IMG/VR virus record: IMGVR_UViG_3300030329_004507 | Span: 59,608 to 84,111 of that record | From: a virus | DNA length: 24,504 nucleotides | Direction: 5' to 3' (one strand) | In this document: piece after piece, positions 5,636 through 19,277 of the stretch | How positions within the stretch are numbered: position 1 is the first letter of the stretch | How the letters are laid out: each line of letters begins with the position of its first letter | Translations under genes and position numbers: made by a program | The notes under the pieces: generated by a model | Databases searched by the model: none | Told to the model about the DNA's origin: nothing | Seen by the model: only the letters and a program-made list of their open reading frames with translations

Positions 5636-7528
5636 ATGAGTAAAATAATTGGAATAGATTTAGGAACAACAAACAGTTGCGTTGCTATCATGACTGGTAA
5701 GGACGCAAAAGTATTAGAAAATGCAGAAGGAGTTAGAACAACACCTTCAGTAGTTGCATTTAGCGACGAGAAATTAGTTGGAGAGCCTGCTAAAAGACAA
5801 GCAGTTTCAAATCCAGCAAATACAATCTTCGCGGCTAAAAGATTAATTGGAAGAAAGTTTGATGGAGATTCTGTACAAAAAGACATACAAACATCACCAT
5901 TTAAAATTACAAAAGCAGACAACGGAGATGCTTGGGTAGAAGCAAAAGGTGAAAAGTATTCACCTTCACAAATCTCTGCTTTCGTTTTACAAAAAATGAA
6001 AGAGACTGCTGAAAAATATTTAGGTCAGGAAGTTAAAAAGGCTGTAATAACAGTACCAGCATACTTTAATGACTCACAAAGACAAGCAACCAAAGACGCA
6101 GGTAAAATTGCAGGACTTGAAGTTGAACGTATAGTAAACGAACCAACTGCGGCGGCACTTGCTTATGGTTTAGATAAAAAGAAATCAGGCACAGTTGCAG
6201 TGTACGACTTAGGTGGTGGTACATTTGATATATCTATATTAGAAATTGGCGATGGAGTATTTGAAGTTAAGTCTACAAATGGTGATACATCATTAGGTGG
6301 TGAAGACTTTGATAATGTATTAGTCAATTATCTTGTTAGTGAATTTAAAAAAGATACTGGCATGGATATTAAAGGTGATAACCTGGCTATGCAAAGAGTG
6401 AAAGAAGCGGCAGAGAAAGCAAAATGTGAATTATCATCTACTGCACAAACAGAGATTAATTTGCCATTTATCACTGCTGATAAAACAGGACCAAAACATT
6501 TAAATCTTAAACTTACAAGAGCAAAACTAGAAGCACTAGTTGAGGATTTAATTACTAGAACACTTACTCCTTGTAAGACTGCACTGAAAGATTCAGGTGT
6601 TAGTGCAAATGAAATAAGTGAAGTTATACTTGTAGGTGGTATGACTCGTATGCCAAAAGTTATTGAAACAGTGAAAAACTTCTTTGGCAAGGAACCACAC
6701 ACAGGAGTTAATCCAGACGAAGTTGTAGCAATAGGAGCCGCAATACAGGGTGGAGTATTACAAGGTGATGTTAAAGATGTATTACTATTAGATGTAACAC
6801 CTTTATCACTTGGTATTGAAACACTAGGCGGAGTTGCAACAAAACTAATTGAAAAGAATACAACTATTCCTACAAAGAAAAGTCAAGTATTCTCTACCGC
6901 AGAAAACAATCAAGCGGCAGTTACAATTAGAGTTGTACAGGGTGAAAGAGAAATGGCCGCTGACAATAAAATACTTGGAAACTTTAACCTAGAAGGTATT
7001 GCACCTGCACCAAGAGGTGTGCCACAAATTGAAGTAACATTTGATATTGATGCAAATGGTATTGTAAATGTATCTGCAAAAGATAAAGGTACAGGCAAAG
7101 AACAAAAAATTACAATACAAGCATCAGGAGGATTAAGTGAGGCTGATATTGAAAAAATGGTTAAAGAAGCAGAAGCAAACAAAGAAGCGGACAAAAAGAA
7201 AAGAGAAGATGTTGATGCTAGAAATCATGCTGACGCACTTGCTGACGCAACTGAAAAGTCATTGAAAGAACACGGTGACAAAGTTTCTGCAGAAGATAAA
7301 GCAAAAATAGAAACTGGTCTAACTGATTTAAGAGATGCACTTAAAGGAACTGATGTTGAAACTATAAAAAGTAAAACAAAAGATCTTACTGAAGCATCTA
7401 TGAAACTTGGTGAAGCAGTTTATAAAAGTCAACAACAAGAACAAAAACCAGAACAAGAAACACAACAAACAAACGAACAAAGCAAAGACGATGTTGTTGA
7501 TGCTGAGTTCGAGGAAGTTAAAAAGTAA
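5636..7528 (+). CDS. dnaK: DnaK, Hsp70 chaperone
   Basis: The complete protein has 630 residues. The ATPase domain starts with GIDLGTTNS (6-14) and includes DLGGGTFD and the VGGMTRMP motif. The interdomain linker [13 protein letters not shown] is at about 381-393. It is followed by the substrate-binding beta domain (RVVQGERE...NKILGNF), a helical lid, a Gln-rich tail and a final EFEEV motif as in bacterial DnaK. It binds exposed hydrophobic segments in an ATP cycle that needs DnaJ and GrpE; neither is encoded in the window, so host co-chaperones would be needed. AAGGAG lies 5 nt before ATG. clpS follows after 2 nt and is probably in the same transcript. A full DnaK is uncommon in phages. Confidence 0.98.
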
Positions 7529-8184: not shown

Positions 8185-8400
8185 ATGATTATGAGTAATT
8201 GGTTTTGGTGGGCAATACCAGAAAAATATGTTAGAAGATATTTGATATTTTTATGGTTAATACTGTTTATAGTGCCTGGTTATGTGTTTGGATTACAGTA
8301 CACTAAACTAGGTTTGATTGTAAATTGGTTGTGGTATGATATTATTTTTTATGGTTGGGTAAAAGTGAAAGAACAATTAGAAAAGGATTTAAACGAATGA
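8185..8400 (+). CDS. Small membrane protein
   Basis: The protein has 71 residues, with two hydrophobic, Trp-rich segments: about 19-38 (RYLIFLWLILFIVPGYVFGL) and 44-58 (LIVNWLWYDIIFYGW). A charged tail EQLEKDLNE ends it. The start may be ATG 8185 or ATG 8191; neither has a good ribosome site. It overlaps the glutaredoxin start by ATGA at 8397-8400. The function is unknown; small phage membrane proteins at such places often affect the host inner membrane. Confidence 0.7.
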   Translation: MIMSNWFWWAIPEKYVRRYLIFLWLILFIVPGYVFGLQYTKLGLIVNWLWYDIIFYGWVKVKEQLEKDLNE

Positions 8401-8636
8401 AAGCAATAGTATGGAGTAAACCAGCCTGTCCATGGTGCGACAGAGCAAAGAACCTTTTAAAAAATAAAGGTATAGAGTACGAAGAAAAAAACATAGCAGA
8501 AGGACACAAAATACAAGACTTATTAGCACTTGTACCTAATGCTAAAACAATGCCACAAATTTGGTTAGACGACGAACACCTTGGTGGTTATCCTGAATTA
8601 GAAAAAAAATTAAATGAACTTTCTGATAACCAATGA
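8397..8636 (+). CDS. Glutaredoxin
   Basis: The 79-residue protein starts at ATG 8397, inside the stop of the previous gene; longer versions upstream would read through the neighbour's coding region and are unlikely. The thioredoxin fold shows active site C11-P-W-C14, the cis-proline loop TMPQIW and the glutathione-site GG (LGGYPEL). It reduces disulfides using glutathione, and in phages commonly serves ribonucleotide reductase. Dithiol CPWC differs from the monothiol CGFS type used in Fe-S transfer, so a redox role is more likely than cluster delivery, even though Fe-S genes lie 3.5 kb away. Confidence 0.93.
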   Translation: MKAIVWSKPACPWCDRAKNLLKNKGIEYEEKNIAEGHKIQDLLALVPNAKTMPQIWLDDEHLGGYPELEKKLNELSDNQ

Positions 8637-9690
8637 TAAAGACTATAAAAACGACTTTAGTCTAAACGAAATTAATCACAAAAATTATAAAATACTTTTT
8701 GATGACAACTGGACTCGTGATAACAATAGTATAACAAAAGGAACAGCAAATAATTATTGCACCATTAAGTTTGACGACACTATTGAAATAACACACAACG
8801 AATTAAGAGACTTTCCACTTTGGTATGATGAACATACCTGCAGTAATTTTACAAAACTAGACAACTATGTTCCTGTTGATGGAATATTAAAGCACGATAG
8901 TGAATGGCATTTAACATATCAAAAAGGGTTTTATGATAAACCAGAGTCTTGTGGTTGTGGTAGATCAACTGTTGCAAGATGTGTTGGTTGGCATAGTTTT
9001 GACGAAGAACCTTATGCAGTAGCACTTATTAAAAAAGTATTACTAGATAATACTAAAGCATTTCTTAAATGTAATACACTAGACATATTAGTACCAAATA
9101 ATAACGGACTTGATACATTAACAGTTAGAAGTGTTTTAGATTATTTGAATGTTGATTACAAATTATTTGACATTGAGAAAAAAGATTATCAAAAACTACA
9201 AGCAACATTAGAGTTAGATTACTATGGCTTTAATCAAATACAAGAAATAGGATCTCCTCAATGTATTGTTACAGGATTCTATGGAGATGAATACATTTTA
9301 AGAAATCCTTTTTATGTTCAAAACATATTAAAAAATAGAGGCAAAGATCTTATTGAAATATTTGATTCAAATCCAACTTGCTATATGAGAGAATTTTTTG
9401 ATTTAGTATATAGAAAAAAATGTAAAAAAGTTGAACCTGTTAATATAGATAAGTTAAGTCAAATGATTTGCAATGATATACAGGTTTGGCATATTAATAA
9501 TACTATGCTTTTCACACCGTTTAAAGACAAACGATTATTAAAATTATTAGAATGTGACAGCAACATAATAGTTTCACAAGTTACAGATGGCAAATTATCT
9601 AAAACAGTTATAGAACATTTCAATAAAGACTTATTAAAGTTGTTAGATAAGAGTAAGAACAATGCTGACCCGCATTGGTTTTGGCAATAG
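8614..9690 (+). CDS. Degenerate PP-loop (asparagine-synthase-like) protein with CDGSH-like Cys/His motif
   Basis: The 358-residue protein overlaps the glutaredoxin by 23 nt. Residues 156-186 read like the start of a PP-loop ATPase (ILVPNNNGLDTLTVRSVLDYL), but the SGGLDS loop that grips ATP is NNGLDT (163-168). A later PFKDKRLLKLLE resembles the PFLDxRL element of asparagine-synthase C-terminal domains. Residues 113-127 carry C-x-C-x2-S-x4-C-x-G-x-H, also found in the microprotein at 13911. It may have lost ATP pyrophosphatase activity or use a changed loop. It converges with the minus-strand pair with no gap between stop codons (9690/9691). The family assignment rests on motif pattern only. 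Confidence 0.7.
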   Translation: MNFLITNDKDYKNDFSLNEINHKNYKILFDDNWTRDNNSITKGTANNYCTIKFDDTIEITHNELRDFPLWYDEHTCSNFTKLDNYVPVDGILKHDSEWHLTYQKGFYDKPESCGCGRSTVARCVGWHSFDEEPYAVALIKKVLLDNTKAFLKCNTLDILVPNNNGLDTLTVRSVLDYLNVDYKLFDIEKKDYQKLQATLELDYYGFNQIQEIGSPQCIVTGFYGDEYILRNPFYVQNILKNRGKDLIEIFDSNPTCYMREFFDLVYRKKCKKVEPVNIDKLSQMICNDIQVWHINNTMLFTPFKDKRLLKLLECDSNIIVSQVTDGKLSKTVIEHFNKDLLKLLDKSKNNADPHWFWQ

Positions 9691-10773
9691 TTAAGAGTGC
9701 TTATGAAACATATTGCCTGTCTCGTTCAAATAAGATACAACTAAATCGTGATTTTCAAATAAAGGCACAAAATTAAATAGTTTTTGATTTACACCATCCT
9801 CCACAAGATGTTTATGTTCTGCGTACCATAATAAATCATCTCCACTCTTAGCATTATGAACACTATTTGTTTTTTCAAATCCTAATATATCACACCAGTA
9901 TGTTTGCTTGTCCTTATACTTTTCAACTATATCATTTGCAGGAAATTTTTCCATAAGTCCTATTAGCAATTCATTTCCAAATCTATTTGTACTGTACATT
10001 GTGTCATACTTTGATATGTCTTTTGTTTTACAAAACTTAAATGCTTGTCTAAAGCCTTCTATTGGAAACATTTTTCCTAATGTGCAAGTTACAGTATCAA
10101 TACAAGGATAACTTAAATTAAGAAAAAAATCATGTTGGAACCATGCCCAGCAAACATCAACCAATATAGGGACATTTATTGCACTACATTTCTTGAATAG
10201 TTCATATATCCATTTTGGAGTTTCATATGTTCCATGCAAAGGCAGACTTATTATAATGCAATCGTTATAATTGATATCGTCAGGATCGCTAAAATATTCT
10301 GCGTCTACTTTATAGTGTTTAAGATGAGTTTTGTTCCAATATTCCTCCTGATGGATTCTAACCTTTCTGCCTGTATTCTTTTGTAAGAACTCTATCACAG
10401 CATTCCTTGTAGAAGGCATAGAAAGTAAAGATAAATGATCTCCTATGTGCAAATGATTGCTGGTCCATTTTTTTGCAACTTCAACTAATTTATCATGCTG
10501 GTCAAGATCCTGATGGACTTTCCATAAGTCCATTTTAAAATTTTTTATAAATTCAACGTGCTCTGGATCTCGCAAGGCTCTTACATCACAGAATAAGTGT
10601 TTTGCTCTACCATAAATTGATTTAAAGTCTTTGGATATTTTATCCCATTCTCTTTCTCCTCTAGGTGCTTTCCCTTGTGACTGTGCATTCGCAATCAACA
10701 TCGCTAATTCAAATAAAAATTTAAATCTAGGAGATCTTGTTAATGTATTCCAATGTGCTTCTGTATAAATCAT
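9691..10773 (-). CDS. PLP-dependent aminotransferase-like protein (fold type I)
   Basis: The protein has 360 residues from the ATG at 10773. A TTG at 10797 would add eight residues and is less likely. Counted from that TTG, D214 (VDVCWAWF) sits where the PLP-ring Asp lies, K242 (TLGKMFP) is the likely Schiff-base Lys and R250 (EGFRQAF) matches the G-x-R after it. The N-terminal 110 residues are helical and unusual. The order D, about 28 residues, K, eight residues, R is as in aspartate-aminotransferase-fold enzymes. The substrate is unknown. It overlaps the 3' end of the radical SAM gene by 47 nt on the same strand, so the two form an operon and probably one pathway. Confidence 0.72.
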   Translation of the reverse strand: MIYTEAHWNTLTRSPRFKFLFELAMLIANAQSQGKAPRGEREWDKISKDFKSIYGRAKHLFCDVRALRDPEHVEFIKNFKMDLWKVHQDLDQHDKLVEVAKKWTSNHLHIGDHLSLLSMPSTRNAVIEFLQKNTGRKVRIHQEEYWNKTHLKHYKVDAEYFSDPDDINYNDCIIISLPLHGTYETPKWIYELFKKCSAINVPILVDVCWAWFQHDFFLNLSYPCIDTVTCTLGKMFPIEGFRQAFKFCKTKDISKYDTMYSTNRFGNELLIGLMEKFPANDIVEKYKDKQTYWCDILGFEKTNSVHNAKSGDDLLWYAEHKHLVEDGVNQKLFNFVPLFENHDLVVSYLNETGNMFHKHS

Positions 10774-11872
10774 AGTCCTGTTCAAATTGTCCTTCAATTT
10801 TGTTTTGGTTGTATACTAAATGCCATTCGGGCATAAAGTCTGTTATCTTTGTGTTCCAATGCTTATCTAATTTCCTTACAAACTCAAGGCAACTATCTGT
10901 AGGTTCGTCCTGCAGGAAATTAGTAAATCTTTTATCAACTAAATGTTTCAATGAATTAGGTAAATTTTTTGGGTGTAGTGCTTCTGGCTCATGAACCAAA
11001 CTCATTTGAGTCATGTGTAATTTTCTTTCATTGCACCAGTCTATTAATTCTGGTAGACATAAAATATTAATTGCAGATATTACTGGCTGGATTATTACAT
11101 TTAATCTATTTCTCTGTAATTTTTCAATGTTATCAACTATTGTGTTCCAATCCGCTCCAGGACGAATGTATTCATGTTTTTTGCCCACTGCATCTAAACT
11201 TACAATAACCACAACCTCTTTAAATTTTTTAAGGTTATTAATAAGTCCATCGTTTAGAAGCATGGCATTTGTTGTCACATATATGGTTATATTTTTTGCG
11301 TGATCGTTATCAACAAGCCATTGTATTAGTTTGTGTATTCTTTTGTTGTAAAAAGGTTCACCTCCCATAAGATCTATATACCTTACAGACTCAGCATTTT
11401 CTCTGATTATCTCTTCACTTTCAAAATCATATTTGTATGGTTGTTTCAAAGGCATTCCAATCGCCTCCCATACATTATAAACTTTACTGCTTACATGACT
11501 TTGGCACATTCTACACGCCAGATTACAACTAGCACCAGCCAATAATTTAATTTGTATTGGTTTTAGAACAGCGGCCTTTTTATCCAAAAGGTCTTTGTGT
11601 ACATCAAGCCTTGATTCGTTTACACTCTGCCTCATAGATTTTTTACCAGTATCTTCATCCTTGTAGCACTTCCAACATCCTGCCGGTCTCTGACCAAGCC
11701 TCATCTGTTGTCTAACATTTTCCATTTCGTTGCTTTTCCAATATGCTTCAAAATTGTGATGTGGTTTGTTCTGTGCTTGGTAAACACAACAGGGTGCAAA
11801 CGACGGGTTCGATGTGTCCGCATTTCTGTCTAAACTAATCCATGGTAATATGCAAAGGTTTTTCTTATTCAT
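10727..11872 (-). CDS. Radical SAM protein with N-terminal auxiliary-cluster cysteines (twitch/SPASM-like)
   Basis: The 381-residue protein has the radical SAM cluster motif C116-x3-C120-x2-C123 (CNLACRMC), followed by MGGEPF, the SAM-binding GGE. Before it, residues 1-90 have C7 (CILPW), C28-C29 and C66-x2-C69 (AGCWKCYKDEDTG), the arrangement of proteins annotated as twitch-domain radical SAM. These probably hold a second Fe-S cluster. Enzymes with this layout act on peptides or small molecules; the substrate here is unknown. It starts an operon with the aminotransferase-like gene, reads from the divergent region 11873-11968 and is oriented against most of the window. It would need Fe-S clusters, which fits the nearby Suf genes. 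Confidence 0.88.
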   Translation of the reverse strand: MNKKNLCILPWISLDRNADTSNPSFAPCCVYQAQNKPHHNFEAYWKSNEMENVRQQMRLGQRPAGCWKCYKDEDTGKKSMRQSVNESRLDVHKDLLDKKAAVLKPIQIKLLAGASCNLACRMCQSHVSSKVYNVWEAIGMPLKQPYKYDFESEEIIRENAESVRYIDLMGGEPFYNKRIHKLIQWLVDNDHAKNITIYVTTNAMLLNDGLINNLKKFKEVVVIVSLDAVGKKHEYIRPGADWNTIVDNIEKLQRNRLNVIIQPVISAINILCLPELIDWCNERKLHMTQMSLVHEPEALHPKNLPNSLKHLVDKRFTNFLQDEPTDSCLEFVRKLDKHWNTKITDFMPEWHLVYNQNKIEGQFEQDYDLYRSTLEYINKIS

Positions 11873-12157: not shown

Positions 12158-12481
12158 GTGACGTACACAGTCAACGACAAGTGTATAATGTGTAAGCACA
12201 CAGATTGCGTTGAAGTATGTCCAGTGGATTGTTTTTATGAGGGCGAAAATATGCTTGTCATTAATCCAGACGAGTGTATTGACTGTGGAGTATGTGAACC
12301 AGAGTGTCCAGAAGATGCAATACTCCCAGACACAGATGAAGAAGGTGCAAAATGGGTAGAGTTTAATGGCAAATGGTCACAACAATGGGCAGTGCTTACA
12401 ACTAAAAAAGATTCATTGGACCCAGACGGCAAACACAAAAACGAGCCAGATAAACTCAATAAGTATTTTAGAGACAAATGA
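12158..12481 (+). CDS. fdxA: Seven-iron ferredoxin (FdxA type)
   Basis: The 107-residue protein starts with GTG directly after the preceding stop. Its cysteines match the 7Fe-8S ferredoxins exactly: C9, C17 and C50 for the [3Fe-4S] cluster, and C21, C40, C43 and C46 for the [4Fe-4S] cluster, with the sequences [13 protein letters not shown] and [14 protein letters not shown]. It carries low-potential electrons in the cytoplasm. Sequence detail ([20 protein letters not shown]) is the alphaproteobacterial form, suggesting capture from such a host. Its stop overlaps the sufB start (ATGA at 12478-12481). It could feed electrons to Fe-S assembly, to the radical SAM enzyme, or to ribonucleotide reduction; context favours the first two. 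Confidence 0.95.
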
Positions 12482-13911
12482 GTGATGTATTACAAGAAAG
12501 ACTTAACAAAAAATATGATGCAGGGTTTACAACAAACGTTGAATCAGAGACACTTCCTCCAGGCTTAAACGAAAACACAATAAAACAAATATCAAAAATT
12601 AAACAAGAACCCGATTGGTTATTAAAATTTAGATTAAAAGCATATCAACGTTGGACAAAATTAGAACAACCTAATTGGGCAAATCTTGATATAGAACCTA
12701 TTGACTTCCAATCAATAAGTTATTACTCTGCACCTAAAAAAGGACCTGCAAGTTATGATGATGTAGATCCTGAAATTAAAAAAGATTTTGAAAAGTTAGG
12801 AATACCTTTGTCTGAACGTGCCAAACTAGCAGGTGTGGCTGTTGATGCAGTATTTGATTCTGTATCTGTTGCAACAACATTTCAAAAAGATTTAGCAAAA
12901 CAAGGTATTATATTTTGTTCATTTTCAGAAGCAGTTAAAAATCATCCAGACCTTGTTAAAAAATATTTAGGCTCAGTAATACCCATAAGCGATCATTCAT
13001 TTGCCGCTTTAAACTCTGCTGTGTTTACAGATGGATCATTTGTTTATATTCCACCTAATACAAGATGTCCTATGGAACTGTCTACATATTTTAGAATTAA
13101 TGCGGCCAACACAGGACAGTTTGAAAGAACTTTAATTATAGCAGACAAAGGCAGTTATGTAAGTTACCTTGAAGGATGTACTGCACCAATGAGAGATGAG
13201 AATCAATTACACGCCGCTAATGTAGAACTTGTTGCATTGGATGACGCAGAAATAAAATATTCAACAATACAAAATTGGTATCCTGGAGATCCGGTTACAG
13301 GCAAAGGTGGCATATACAATTTTGTAACCAAACGTGGTAAATGCAAAGGACGTAACTCAAAAATTACCTGGACGCAATTTGAAACAGGGTCTAGACTAAC
13401 TTGGAAATATCCTTCTTGTTTGCTAATGGGAGATAACTCAGTAGGAGAATTTTATTCAGTTGCATTAACTAATGGTAGACAACAAGCGGATACAGGTACT
13501 AAAATGATACATATGGGTAAAAATACTAAGAGCACAATTATATCAAAAGGTATATCTGTAGGTCATTCTAAAAACACATACAGAGGATTAGTTAGAGTTA
13601 TGAAGAAAGCAGATAACTCAAAAAACTTTACTCAATGCGATTCATTAATGTTGGGTAGTAGTTGTCATGCAAGTACTATACCATATATTGAAAATAGAAA
13701 CAGTACAAGTAATTGTAATCACGAAGCAACAACATCTAAACTTGATGATGAACAATTATTCTATGTGATGCAAAGAGGACTTAAAGAAGAAGATGCTAGA
13801 AATTTAATCATAGCAGGATTTTGTAAAGAGATATTTCAAAAACTACCAATGGAATTTGCCGTAGAGGCCAATAAACTATTAGAAGTAAGCATGGAAGGAT
13901 CAATTGGATAA
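12478..13911 (+). CDS. sufB: SufB, Fe-S cluster scaffold subunit
   Basis: The complete protein has 477 residues. The middle is the repetitive beta-helix of SufB/SufD. The conserved 3' block has [19 protein letters not shown], followed by [16 protein letters not shown], with the His-Glu pair that lines the assembly site and cysteines around it. In bacteria SufB works with SufC (ATPase) and SufD to build [Fe-S] clusters; neither SufC nor SufD is here, so it would have to join host SufC/D or act as a SufB-only scaffold. It overlaps the ferredoxin by ATGA and the CDGSH-like microprotein by one base (TAATG). Confidence 0.97.
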
Positions 13912-14072
13912 TGGCCTGCAGATGTGGACGATCTCCAACAGGAGTATGCGTTGGTTGGCACAGTTTAACTGAAGAAAAATATTTAGAATATAAAAAAATA
14001 TATGATGAACTTACAGAAGAAGAAAAGAAAATTGCATTTCACGCCAGAGCAGTGGACGGATTAGGAGAATAA
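13911..14072 (+). CDS. CDGSH-like Cys/His microprotein between sufB and sufE
   Basis: The 53-residue protein starts at ATG 13911 in a TAATG overlap with sufB, and its own stop overlaps the sufE ATG in another TAATG. The N terminus has C3-x-C5-x2-S8-x4-C13-x-G15-x-H17. CDGSH [2Fe-2S] proteins use C-x-C-x2-S-x3-P-x-C-D-G-S-H, so the three-Cys/one-His ligand order is kept with one residue fewer in the loop. The rest is an acidic helix (EEKYLEYKKIYDELTEEEKK) and a short HARAVDG tail. The near-identical motif in 8614-9690 shows that it is a real module. It could bind an Fe-S cluster or zinc. Coding is supported by the exact coupling on both sides. Confidence 0.8.
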   Translation: MACRCGRSPTGVCVGWHSLTEEKYLEYKKIYDELTEEEKKIAFHARAVDGLGE

Positions 14073-14476
14073 TGATACTAGATAAAATTAAAGAACGAGG
14101 CGAACTAATGGCACCACTTGAAGGACATGACAGATTACAATATATTATCGATGAGGCAAAAAATGCAGAACCTTTAGAAGACAAATTTAAAATAAATGAA
14201 AACAAAATACGTGGATGTGTATCTAACCTTTGGGTAGTAGGAGAAATTTTAGAAAATGGCACAATGAAATATAATCATGACGCAGAGTCTTTTATTACAA
14301 AAGGAACTGCAAAAATAATAATAGATATGGTAAACGGTGAACATAGAAGCGAAGTTGCAAATCTAACATTAGAAAACTTTCAAGCATTAGGAATCAGAGA
14401 GTTACTTACAATGCAGAGACAAATAGGATTTGCAAGTTTAATAGAAAAAATAATAAGGATAGCACATGACAATTAA
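14072..14476 (+). CDS. sufE: SufE, sulfur-transfer partner of cysteine desulfurase
   Basis: The protein has 134 residues. The catalytic Cys is in KIRGCVSNLWV, the family's GCqS loop; other family features are LQYIIDEAKNAEPL near the start and a helical C terminus (LGIRELLTMQRQIGFASLI). SufE takes persulfide sulfur from SufS and passes it to SufB. No SufS is in the window, so a host desulfurase would be the donor. It starts with a one-base overlap with the microprotein stop and ends 11 nt inside sufT. Confidence 0.96.
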   Translation: MILDKIKERGELMAPLEGHDRLQYIIDEAKNAEPLEDKFKINENKIRGCVSNLWVVGEILENGTMKYNHDAESFITKGTAKIIIDMVNGEHRSEVANLTLENFQALGIRELLTMQRQIGFASLIEKIIRIAHDN

Positions 14477-14867
14477 TATGCCTCCAGGGTGGACTCCTCA
14501 ACCACATACAAATATAGATCCTAGTCTACACGCGACATTGGACGATATAAAAGATAATCAAGAAATGAAAGATGAATATATTGGATACATCACAGAAAAA
14601 CTTAAAGAAGTATATGATCCAGAAATATCTATAGACATATACAATTTAGGTTTAATTTATGATGTAAAAATAACTGAAGAAAGATATGTATTTGTATTAA
14701 TGAGTTTGACATCAGCATTTTGTCCAGCCGCTGATACAATACCTTTAGATGTACAACAGAAAATTGAAAGCATACCAGGACTAAAATGCAAGGTTAAAAT
14801 AACTATGCAACCTCAATGGGGTCGTGAAATGATTAATCCTGATATGCGAGACTTAATGGGACTATGA
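14466..14867 (+). CDS. sufT: SufT / MIP18-family (DUF59) Fe-S protein maturation factor
   Basis: The 133-residue protein has the MIP18-like domain from about 37 on: VYDPEISIDIYNLGLIYDVKI, then MSLTSAFCPAADTIPLDV with the reactive Cys, VKITMQPQWGREM, and an RDLMGL end. These proteins help to insert Fe-S clusters into target proteins and are often the last gene of suf operons. The N-terminal 36 residues (Pro-rich, then acidic) are an extension. It overlaps sufE by 11 nt and thyX by ATGA, so order and spacing fit one translational unit. Confidence 0.93.
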   Translation: MTINMPPGWTPQPHTNIDPSLHATLDDIKDNQEMKDEYIGYITEKLKEVYDPEISIDIYNLGLIYDVKITEERYVFVLMSLTSAFCPAADTIPLDVQQKIESIPGLKCKVKITMQPQWGREMINPDMRDLMGL

Positions 14868-17836: not shown

Positions 17837-18643
17837 ATGGACATAGACATAGGCAATGACAAGCCTTTCTTTCTGATTGCAGGACCTTGTCAAATAGAAT
17901 CGCAAGAACACGCACTACATATGGCAACTGCCATAAAACATATTACTGACTATCTAGATATACCACTCATTTATAAATCAAGTTTTGACAAAGCCAACAG
18001 AACTTCTTTACACGGTAAACGTGGAGCAGGACTAGAACGTGGTATGCGAATATTTGATTACCTCAAAGAACAAATACCTGGTTTAAAAATAATAACAGAT
18101 GTACACACTGAAGAACAATGTAATATAGTTGCACCACACGTGGACGCACTACAAATACCTGCTTTCTTATGCAGACAAACAGACTTACTATTGGCCGCGG
18201 CCAACACAGGCTTATATATTAATGTTAAAAAAGGACAGTTTCTAGCACCATGGGATATGAAAAACGTTGCAGAAAAATTAGCATCCACAGGCAACGAAAA
18301 AATTTGGTTGTGTGAAAGAGGCACAAGTTTTGGATACAACACTCTTGTAAATGATATGAGAGGATTACATGAAATGAAAAAGACAGGTTATCCTGTTGTT
18401 ATAGATGCCACACACAGTTGTCAACAACCAGGTGGACAAGGTACAAGTTCAGGTGGTAACAGAGAACACATACCTGTAATTGCAAAGTCGGCTGTTGCTG
18501 TTGGTGTTGCTGGTGTGTTTATGGAAGTGCATAATGACCCTGATAATGCCGCAAGTGATGGACCAAACAATTTACATTTAAACGATCTAGAAAAACTTTT
18601 AATAAAACTAAAACAGATAGATGACATTACCAAATCTGAATAA
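17837..18643 (+). CDS. kdsA: KdsA, 3-deoxy-8-phosphooctulonate synthase
   Basis: The full-length protein has 268 residues. Key motifs are IAGPCQIES near the start, YKSSFDKANR, the KDO8P-synthase signature RGAGLERGM, IITDVHTEEQC, LQIPAFLCRQTDLL, NVKKGQFLAPWDM, LCERGTSFGYN and VIDATHSCQQPGG. It condenses phosphoenolpyruvate with arabinose-5-phosphate to KDO-8-phosphate, the LPS inner-core sugar precursor. With the sugar dehydrogenase 1.3 kb upstream it suggests manipulation of host surface carbohydrate. It starts 8 nt after the previous stop, with no strong ribosome site, and overlaps the SGNH gene by 23 nt. Confidence 0.97.
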   Translation: MDIDIGNDKPFFLIAGPCQIESQEHALHMATAIKHITDYLDIPLIYKSSFDKANRTSLHGKRGAGLERGMRIFDYLKEQIPGLKIITDVHTEEQCNIVAPHVDALQIPAFLCRQTDLLLAAANTGLYINVKKGQFLAPWDMKNVAEKLASTGNEKIWLCERGTSFGYNTLVNDMRGLHEMKKTGYPVVIDATHSCQQPGGQGTSSGGNREHIPVIAKSAVAVGVAGVFMEVHNDPDNAASDGPNNLHLNDLEKLLIKLKQIDDITKSE

Positions 18644-19277
18644 ATTAAAGCCTAGAAAATTTTTAAGTTTAGGAAGACATTCTCTTGCACACGTTGGAGA
18701 CTTATCTAAACCTTATTTTGTTGTGGTTGGTTGCAGTTACACATACGGAGTTGGTTTAAATTACAAAGATGTATGGTGTAATAAACTAGCACAAACCTTA
18801 GGCCTAGAACACATCAATTTGTCGTTTCCAGGAACATCCATAGAATATCAATACGATAAAATATTACAAACAGAAAAAATATTGTCAGATGCAAAATTTA
18901 TCATTTGGATGCAATCTTCTCCTGTGCGTTCACACAGAACATTTTTAAGTTTTTTAATTGGCGATAAATCTGCTAGAATTCCAGTTTCTACAACTTGGGG
19001 AGACAAAAAACTTTGGGAAAAAGTTCAACGTTTTTATGATCTAACTAAAAATAAAAAAATAATTTTTACCAACGGATGGCATTGGAATAACAAAATAAAA
19101 CTTTTATTAGAAAATAAAATTTGTAAACAAAACAAAAACTATTTTTTAAACAAATACGAACCTGAAGATTTAGGATTTGATAAAATACACCCTGGTACAC
19201 AATCTCATCTACATCTTGTAAATGATATTGGTTCTCATATAACAAAACATTTCTCTGATTGGATTGGTAATAAGTAA
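18621..19277 (+). CDS. SGNH/GDSL-like hydrolase
   Basis: The 218-residue protein has an SGNH pattern: the catalytic Ser region VVVGCSYTYGVG (S39), the NLSFPGTSI block, and a C-terminal D187-x2-H190 (DKIHPGTQSHLHLV). These esterases and acetylhydrolases remove acyl groups from sugars and lipids. There is no signal peptide. SGNH-like proteins are frequent in marine phages as tail- or glycan-modifying enzymes. The position after kdsA supports a glycan-linked role, but the substrate is unknown. It overlaps kdsA by 23 nt. Confidence 0.8.
   Translation: MTLPNLNKLKPRKFLSLGRHSLAHVGDLSKPYFVVVGCSYTYGVGLNYKDVWCNKLAQTLGLEHINLSFPGTSIEYQYDKILQTEKILSDAKFIIWMQSSPVRSHRTFLSFLIGDKSARIPVSTTWGDKKLWEKVQRFYDLTKNKKIIFTNGWHWNNKIKLLLENKICKQNKNYFLNKYEPEDLGFDKIHPGTQSHLHLVNDIGSHITKHFSDWIGNK

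Follow-up and report, generated by a model that had tools for sequence, protein, structure and literature searches.

We analysed a window of 24,504 nt of viral DNA (IMG/VR record IMGVR_UViG_3300030329_004507, positions 59,608 to 84,111), in which a radical SAM gene and an aminotransferase-like gene of the pyridoxal phosphate (PLP) type overlap on the minus strand and lie among genes for Fe–S cluster and redox proteins. The following features were assigned:

8397..8636, plus strand: glutaredoxin (PF00462, E 2.4e-15), marking the conserved slot of the radical SAM–PLP pair
8614..9690, plus strand: orphan 358-aa ORF, initially annotated as PP-loop-like; coding-like codon use, without homologues
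9691..10773, minus strand: PLP gene, 360 aa from an ATG start; a TTG at 10797 is also possible (368 aa, 9691–10797)
10727..11872, minus strand: radical SAM gene, 381 aa, first of the conserved pair (NF033640 and PF04055)
12158..12481, plus strand: 4Fe-4S ferredoxin (PF00037, PF11953)
12478..13911, plus strand: SufB, Fe–S cluster assembly (PF01458, E 1.4e-81)
14072..14476, plus strand: SufE-like Fe–S assembly protein, named by reading of the sequence
14466..14867, plus strand: SufT/PaaD-like Fe–S assembly protein (PF01883, E 1.1e-14)

ORF calls place the three central genes where the initial annotation had them and reproduce both the 47-nt overlap of the radical SAM and PLP genes, which grows to 71 nt with the TTG start, and the gapless convergence of the PLP gene with the 358-aa ORF, whose stop codons abut exactly (9690 is the last position of one ORF, 9691 the first of the other). 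When the region was shuffled by mononucleotide 300 times, no open frame exceeded 159 codons, so ORFs of 358–381 aa are not due to chance, and by the codon usage of the window each of the three scores best in its own frame.

The product of 10727..11872 is, as judged from its sequence, certainly a radical SAM protein with an N-terminal twitch domain. Its initial identification as radical SAM is confirmed by matches to NF033640 (E 9.2e-89; 298.3 bits against a cut-off of 170, covering nearly the whole model) and PF04055 (E 6.8e-16). Alignment shows the SAM-cluster motif CX3CX2C (C116-x3-C120-x2-C123) and the cysteines of the N-terminal twitch or auxiliary cluster (C7, C28, C66 and C69) to be invariant across seven orthologues, of which that of contig G005 is 41% identical to the window protein and forms a fully supported pair with it in the tree. 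The window protein scores above the cut-off of NF033640 and shares the N-terminal twitch cysteines of this family; the definition of the family rests on sequence, and its model names no specific function, but the phage member comes with a PLP partner of its own.

This partner matches no profile in Pfam, NCBIfam or PHROG when the window protein is searched alone, and standard annotation therefore misses it. With PF00155 (Aminotran_1_2), the window protein gave no match and one of seven PLP family members did (E 9.4e-05). Although it lacks a profile match, the aminotransferase-like identity initially proposed is supported by family motifs and predicted fold. In the family alignment, D214 (the Asp facing the pyridine nitrogen) and K242 (the Schiff-base Lys) are invariant in 28 sequences and in the closest orthologues, and G129, S239, R250 and G252 are each kept in at least 90% of the alignment. 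The AF2 model (pLDDT 77.8, pTM 0.77) matches BacF in a Foldseek search of the PDB (E 5.9e-11, prob 1.00, TM ~0.5–0.6). The phage protein has the same predicted fold and the same Asp, Lys and Gly-loop positions as the fold-type-I aminotransferases BacF, HisC, CobC, Plu4 and GntC, but the phage proteins are only 11–18% identical to these and comprise ~300–370 aa. The product of 9691..10773 is thus predicted to be a compact fold-type-I PLP enzyme of the aminotransferase-like kind. The phosphate-side Arg (R250) is present in the window protein, but the four closest orthologues have Lys or Ser at this position, so that enzyme activity is not assured.

When the PLP, PP-loop-like and radical SAM proteins were used singly to scan viral contigs, no matches emerged, nor did tblastn against deposited phages find relatives of the PLP protein or of the 358-aa ORF. 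Relatives were found through SufB first and afterwards through family alignments; a mixed family alignment was too divergent for use as a scan query. The resulting set of loci contains 63 ORFs of the PLP family, which is almost confined to viral contigs: the search used found one relative among ~85,000 species genomes of bacteria and archaea. Among the seven contigs with the closest radical SAM relatives, four carry a PLP gene that overlaps the 3′ end of the radical SAM gene by 11–44 nt (L145, L146/G005, L147 and L149), and in three of these loci (L146/G005, L147 and L149) a glutaredoxin gene lies directly upstream of the pair; orthologous radical SAM genes occur without the PLP gene in L144, L148 and L150. 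Across 33 dereplicated PLP loci, a radical SAM gene stands immediately upstream on the same strand in 23 and the two genes are fused in 3, with PLP-family genes that do not adjoin radical SAM in L044, L048, L102, L108 and the L038 form. The radical SAM proteins of the window and G005 group with the clade that lies upstream of PLP in radical SAM arrays (SH-aLRT 85), a grouping of moderate support only and with long branches. Mapped onto the radical SAM tree, the label for a PLP neighbour changes 9 times, against a mean of 21 for shuffled labels (0 of 500 shuffles as low), in keeping with co-inheritance of the two genes. In many phage contigs, radical SAM and PLP genes form a conserved two-gene unit whose members overlap and are sometimes fused.

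The 358-aa ORF is missing from all relatives searched, including those that hold the pair in the same slot. The initial annotation had joined all three genes in one modification module and proposed their co-occurrence in relatives as its test; the three do not co-occur, and what survives is the radical SAM–PLP core with its overlap, shared slot and fusion. The PP-loop identity assigned to the ORF is not sustained either. No match was found in Pfam, NCBIfam, PHROG or PDB sequences, PF00733 gave nothing at E ≤ 10, and hhalign comparison with families of AsnB-like and PP-loop proteins from phages gave probabilities ≤0.2% (a single orphan query, of low power). At the presumed motif the ORF reads NNNGLDT, not the SGGxDS of PP-loop enzymes, which genuine phage PP-loop proteins keep in alignment; neither a PP-loop ATPase nor an asparagine synthetase-like assignment is supported. 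A single-sequence AF2 model, examined for a HUP/Rossmann-like fold, reached a pLDDT of only 32 and was uninformative, and a DNA-pattern scan for relatives by GFYGDEY returned 12 matches, all unrelated. The gene is probably a lineage-specific neighbour outside the conserved core. It shares a C-x-C-x2-S-x4-C-V-G-W-H segment with a small ORF at 13911; assignment of this segment to a CDGSH iron–sulfur domain is not supported, as a search of the record with PF09360 gave nothing at E ≤ 10.

The Fe–S genes recur beside related loci. In L053 and L070 a PLP array is followed directly by a ferredoxin homologue, and the ferredoxin at 12158..12481 is a plausible electron donor for the radical SAM protein. 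Relatives of the SufE-like protein adjoin SufB in L018, L038, L030 and others (tblastn). An intein in phage SufB, suspected from matches ~560 nt too long, was discarded once alignment showed an uninterrupted SufB. Host-like genes (ClpX, DnaK, SufB, ThyX and KdsA) are abundant in the window.

Many PLP loci lie within tandem radical SAM arrays of T4-like phages; the array contigs carry phage markers, T4-type gp23 in G016, G037 and G052 and terminase in five, and SufB, Hsp20, DnaK, ClpS and SufT adjoin the array of G016. The arrays contain amidinotransferase-like proteins (20 loci), AspH-type hydroxylases (10 loci) and B12-radical SAM proteins, and some hold genuine PP-loop (SGGxDS) proteins. Phages with related arrays thus also have true PP-loop enzymes beside radical SAM genes, and the initial suggestion of a phage pathway that joins these enzyme types is in this respect supported. 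The record of the window, itself a fragment, holds no amidinotransferase-like and no B12-radical SAM gene. Tentatively, T4-like large phages may encode an undescribed class of biosynthetic cluster that makes a phage-specific modification of the amino or guanidino type, in which up to ~12 radical SAM proteins surround a dedicated PLP enzyme together with amidinotransferase-like, hydroxylase, B12-radical SAM and PP-loop proteins, and of which the window pair would be the smallest known form.

We consider it fairly probable that the radical SAM–PLP unit of large aquatic phages is a minimal form of the larger array pathway, its two enzymes acting one after the other on the same substrate. The analysis shows the pairing, the families, the predicted fold, the conservation of Asp and Lys and the neighbouring Fe–S genes, whereas the catalysis, the sequence of steps, the source of electrons, the substrate and the use of the unit are inferred. 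The radical SAM enzyme would abstract a hydrogen and oxidise or rearrange the substrate, and the PLP enzyme would then transaminate (or eliminate from or decarboxylate) its product, while assembly and reduction of the Fe–S clusters would fall to SufB, SufE, SufT, ferredoxin and glutaredoxin. The product would probably be a sugar, an amino acid or a protein side chain in modified form, destined for the cell or virion surface. A precedent is aminocyclitol biosynthesis, in which twitch radical SAM enzymes and PLP aminotransferases alternate: in the butirosin pathway, the twitch radical SAM dehydrogenase BtrN works with PLP aminotransferases, likewise a twitch radical SAM enzyme and then a fold-type-I PLP enzyme, and streptomycin-type pathways add an amidinotransferase, paralleled by the amidinotransferase-like proteins of the phage arrays. 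However, the twitch of BtrN is C-terminal and that of the phage enzymes N-terminal, the PLP partner in phages has diverged and is far shorter, and nothing points to an aminocyclitol.

Radical SAM proteins with twitch or SPASM domains commonly act on peptides, and several of the weaker NCBIfam matches of the window protein are peptide maturases. The radical SAM proteins, alone or in arrays, could accordingly have a protein of the phage or its host as their target, for instance a small precursor, a tail protein or one that binds the receptor, with PLP and other enzymes acting on side chains, as the AspH-type hydroxylases and ADI/amidinotransferase-like proteins of the arrays can do; radical SAM cassettes of pelagimyophages, moreover, sit in a host-recognition cluster (PMC7029224). 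Small molecules are the normal substrates of PLP aminotransferases, and we regard such maturation as unlikely. Radical SAM, PLP and PP-loop enzymes also occur in known phage base-modification pathways, thymidine hypermodification having the use of radical SAM and PLP in common with the unit, so that the enzymes might build a modified nucleobase protecting phage DNA. ThyX in the window and a QueC-like gene on array contig G047 (L124) agree with this, but the latter lies far outside the array, the window's own PP-loop assignment lacks support, and no known signature gene, including the others of thymidine hypermodification, was seen beside the pair in the relatives' neighbourhoods as read; DNA-base hypermodification is quite improbable.

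The pair might instead, with the Suf and ferredoxin genes, aid amino-acid or cofactor metabolism of the host during infection. The wealth of host-like genes in the window would fit, and Fe–S assembly genes of T4-like environmental phages have been proposed to serve host and viral proteins (PMC5332604). The nearly virus-only distribution of the PLP family argues against a borrowed host enzyme, and we give this explanation little credence. That unrelated genes were brought together by chance in a hypervariable region fits the 358-aa ORF, a gene without relatives; for the radical SAM and PLP genes it is contradicted by repeated overlap, kept order, shared slot and fusion, and it is very improbable.

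Literature searches found no published description of a phage radical SAM/PLP pathway, and the unit and its pathway are, as far as could be found, undescribed. Like the phages studied here, the T4-like environmental phage TARA_ERS488813_N000010 carries many radical SAM genes (12) together with cas4 and the Fe–S genes grx and paaD (PaaD/SufT); the available part of that account gives gene counts only, and no aminotransferase was found there (PMC5332604). Marine T4-like pelagimyophages likewise carry radical SAM genes, as variable cassettes within the host recognition cluster, for which no PLP partner or gene order is described and the search made there found no aminotransferase (PMC7029224).

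Radical SAM genes of marine phages have so far been counted and left unexplained, and the conserved, sometimes fused radical SAM–PLP unit offers a concrete two-enzyme start that can be expressed and assayed. Together, unit and arrays suggest that these phages possess a multi-step pathway of chemical modification of their own, and the arrays point to one unusually elaborate for phages. Knowledge of its product could reveal how these phages modify virion, host surface or DNA, and new enzyme chemistry could come of it.

We analysed three adjoining ORFs that the initial annotation had drawn as one modification module:

8614–9690, plus strand: 358-aa ORF, annotated as PP-loop-like
9691–10797, or 9691–10773 from an ATG start, minus strand: PLP aminotransferase-like ORF
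10727–11872, minus strand: radical SAM ORF

With the middle ORF read from its ATG, we confirmed the annotated 47-nt overlap between the PLP and radical SAM ORFs, and the convergent stop codons of the 358-aa and PLP ORFs abut exactly, as had been claimed. Codon use favours all three ORFs in the annotated frame, and the longest open frame in shuffled sequence was ≤159 codons. Further genes of the window (some named by reading) include ClpX, Hsp20, DnaK, ClpS, glutaredoxin, ferredoxin, SufB, SufE-like, SufT, ThyX and nucleotide-sugar dehydrogenase. The window corresponds to bases 59608–84111 of a virus record (G000) 84,111 bases long, which holds four more radical SAM genes (17959–18858, 29996–31039, 31017–32312 and 56973–57884), two of which overlap one another.

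The radical SAM identity of 10727–11872 is secure (NF033640, E 9.2e-89, well above cut-off; PF04055, E 6.8e-16). The protein carries CX3CX2C at residues 116–123, its N-terminal Cys 7, 28, 66 and 69 are invariant in seven orthologues, and its nearest relatives, at 36–47% identity, lie in seven contigs. The PLP protein alone gave no family match in profile searches; relatives were gathered via related phage contigs and then via alignments. The family so defined numbers 63 ORFs across the loci set, duplicate contigs accounting for some of them. An alignment of 28 members shows no exception at Asp214 or Lys242 and ≥90% conservation of Gly129, Ser239, Arg250 and Gly252; the four closest orthologues have Lys or Ser for Arg250 and retain Asp214 and Lys242. 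Foldseek placed an AF2 model built with the family alignment (pLDDT 77.8, pTM 0.77) among fold-type-I aminotransferases at probability 1.00 (BacF, HisC, CobC, Plu4, GntC). Because of the invariant Asp/Lys, the predicted fold and the retention of Asp and Lys where Arg changes, we call the product of 9691–10797/10773 a putative PLP enzyme of aminotransferase type; family motifs and modelled fold support the annotated reading. A search of about 85,000 genomes of bacteria and archaea found a single relative. This locus (L057, JACOND010000006.1) is on a contig from a Bdellovibrionales MAG, and the strand opposite its PLP-family gene carries two radical SAM genes; the contig may be phage DNA binned with the host.

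The PLP gene overlaps the radical SAM 3′ end by 11–44 nt in related loci L145, L146 (contig G005), L147 and L149. The order ClpX, S21-like, Hsp20, ClpS, o114, o71, glutaredoxin, radical SAM, PLP is common to L146, L147 and L149, except that ClpS was not detected in L149, and matches the window bar two differences: the window pair runs in the opposite orientation, and the 358-aa ORF separates it from glutaredoxin. The radical SAM orthologue occurs without PLP in L144, L148 and L150; in L148 a 363-aa protein (6041–7132), UV-damage endonuclease-like in appearance, takes the place of PLP. L018 and L038 carry, without radical SAM, a 444-aa PLP-family protein in the post-glutaredoxin slot (L038:5776–7110, same ORF in L018), in which an N-terminal domain of unknown kind is fused to the PLP-family domain. 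TonB-dependent-receptor-like genes (named by reading) occur in phage contigs at L038:10955–12628 and at L146:7221–9086, the latter directly after the G005 pair.

Across 33 dereplicated PLP loci, radical SAM lies immediately upstream of PLP on the same strand in 23 and downstream in 14, and the two are joined as a single ORF in three. At L063:234–4487, a 1417-aa radical SAM-containing ORF lies directly 5′ of a PLP–radical SAM fusion. In a tree of 96 radical SAM proteins, made by a quick method and limited by long branches, the window protein pairs with that of G005 at full support, and the two group, with moderate support (85), with the clade of array radical SAMs located upstream of PLP; the label "upstream of PLP" changes 9 times on the tree versus a shuffled mean of 21, with 0 of 500 shuffles as low. 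Tandem radical SAM arrays are common among PLP loci (e.g. contigs G016, G035 and G037); in G016, many radical SAM genes surround PLP at 198.8–215.6 kb, adjoining SufB, Hsp20, DnaK, ClpS and SufT. T4-type gp23 is present in G016, G037 and G052 and terminase in five contigs, and the arrays therefore belong to phages. An AsnB-like protein adjoins radical SAM genes in G051. Conserved array neighbours are:

20 loci: ADI/amidinotransferase-like protein (ADI assignment weak)
13 loci: pair of unknown 428/467-aa proteins
12 loci: 283-aa protein
10 loci: AspH-type hydroxylases (AspH by Pfam)

The PP-loop identity of the 358-aa ORF was not supported: PP-loop profiles gave no match, and its motif reads NNNGLDT. 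Searches for relatives in INPHARED phages, in the viral collection (at the sensitivity of that scan) and in related or array-bearing phage contigs searched whole found none, leaving it an orphan. An AF2 model from the single sequence was uninformative. By eye, the ORF may faintly resemble asparagine synthetases (LRDFPLWY, TGFYGDEY), a lead only. Its residues 111–136 share 54% identity over 26 aa with a 53-aa ORF (13911–14072, between SufB and SufE) containing CRCGRSPTGVCVGWH; a CDGSH reading of that segment was not supported, the resemblance being loose and PF09360 giving no match. In G037 and G028, radical SAM genes have true PP-loop proteins (SGGxDS) as neighbours. Phage PP-loop proteins of one alignment, A7 (L128:1495–2235, L127, L125 and L126), combine SGGxDS with a C-terminal Cys-rich TRSC...CWWC.ER and appear QueC-like by eye; the genes in L125, L127 and L128 adjoin radical SAM genes, and the phages concerned have PLP arrays.

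The radical SAM–PLP unit is real and conserved; the three-gene module as initially drawn is not supported, the 358-aa ORF being absent from the related phage contigs searched. A T4-like environmental phage carries 12 radical SAM genes with grx and paaD (PMC5332604), and pelagimyophage host-recognition clusters contain radical SAM cassettes (PMC7029224); the relevant passages of these two papers make no mention of an aminotransferase partner. Searches of open-access papers turned up nothing closer to the unit, which is apparently new to the literature.

Overlap, order, co-inheritance and fusion support the view that the two enzymes would act consecutively. Aminocyclitol pathways use twitch radical SAM dehydrogenases together with PLP aminotransferases, and by this analogy the simplest scheme would be oxidation by the radical SAM enzyme followed by transamination by the PLP enzyme. 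Its main rival is peptide modification. An amidinotransferase encoded in the larger arrays would be consistent with a guanidino product. The Fe–S assembly genes and ferredoxin adjoining the pair match what radical SAM enzymes require.
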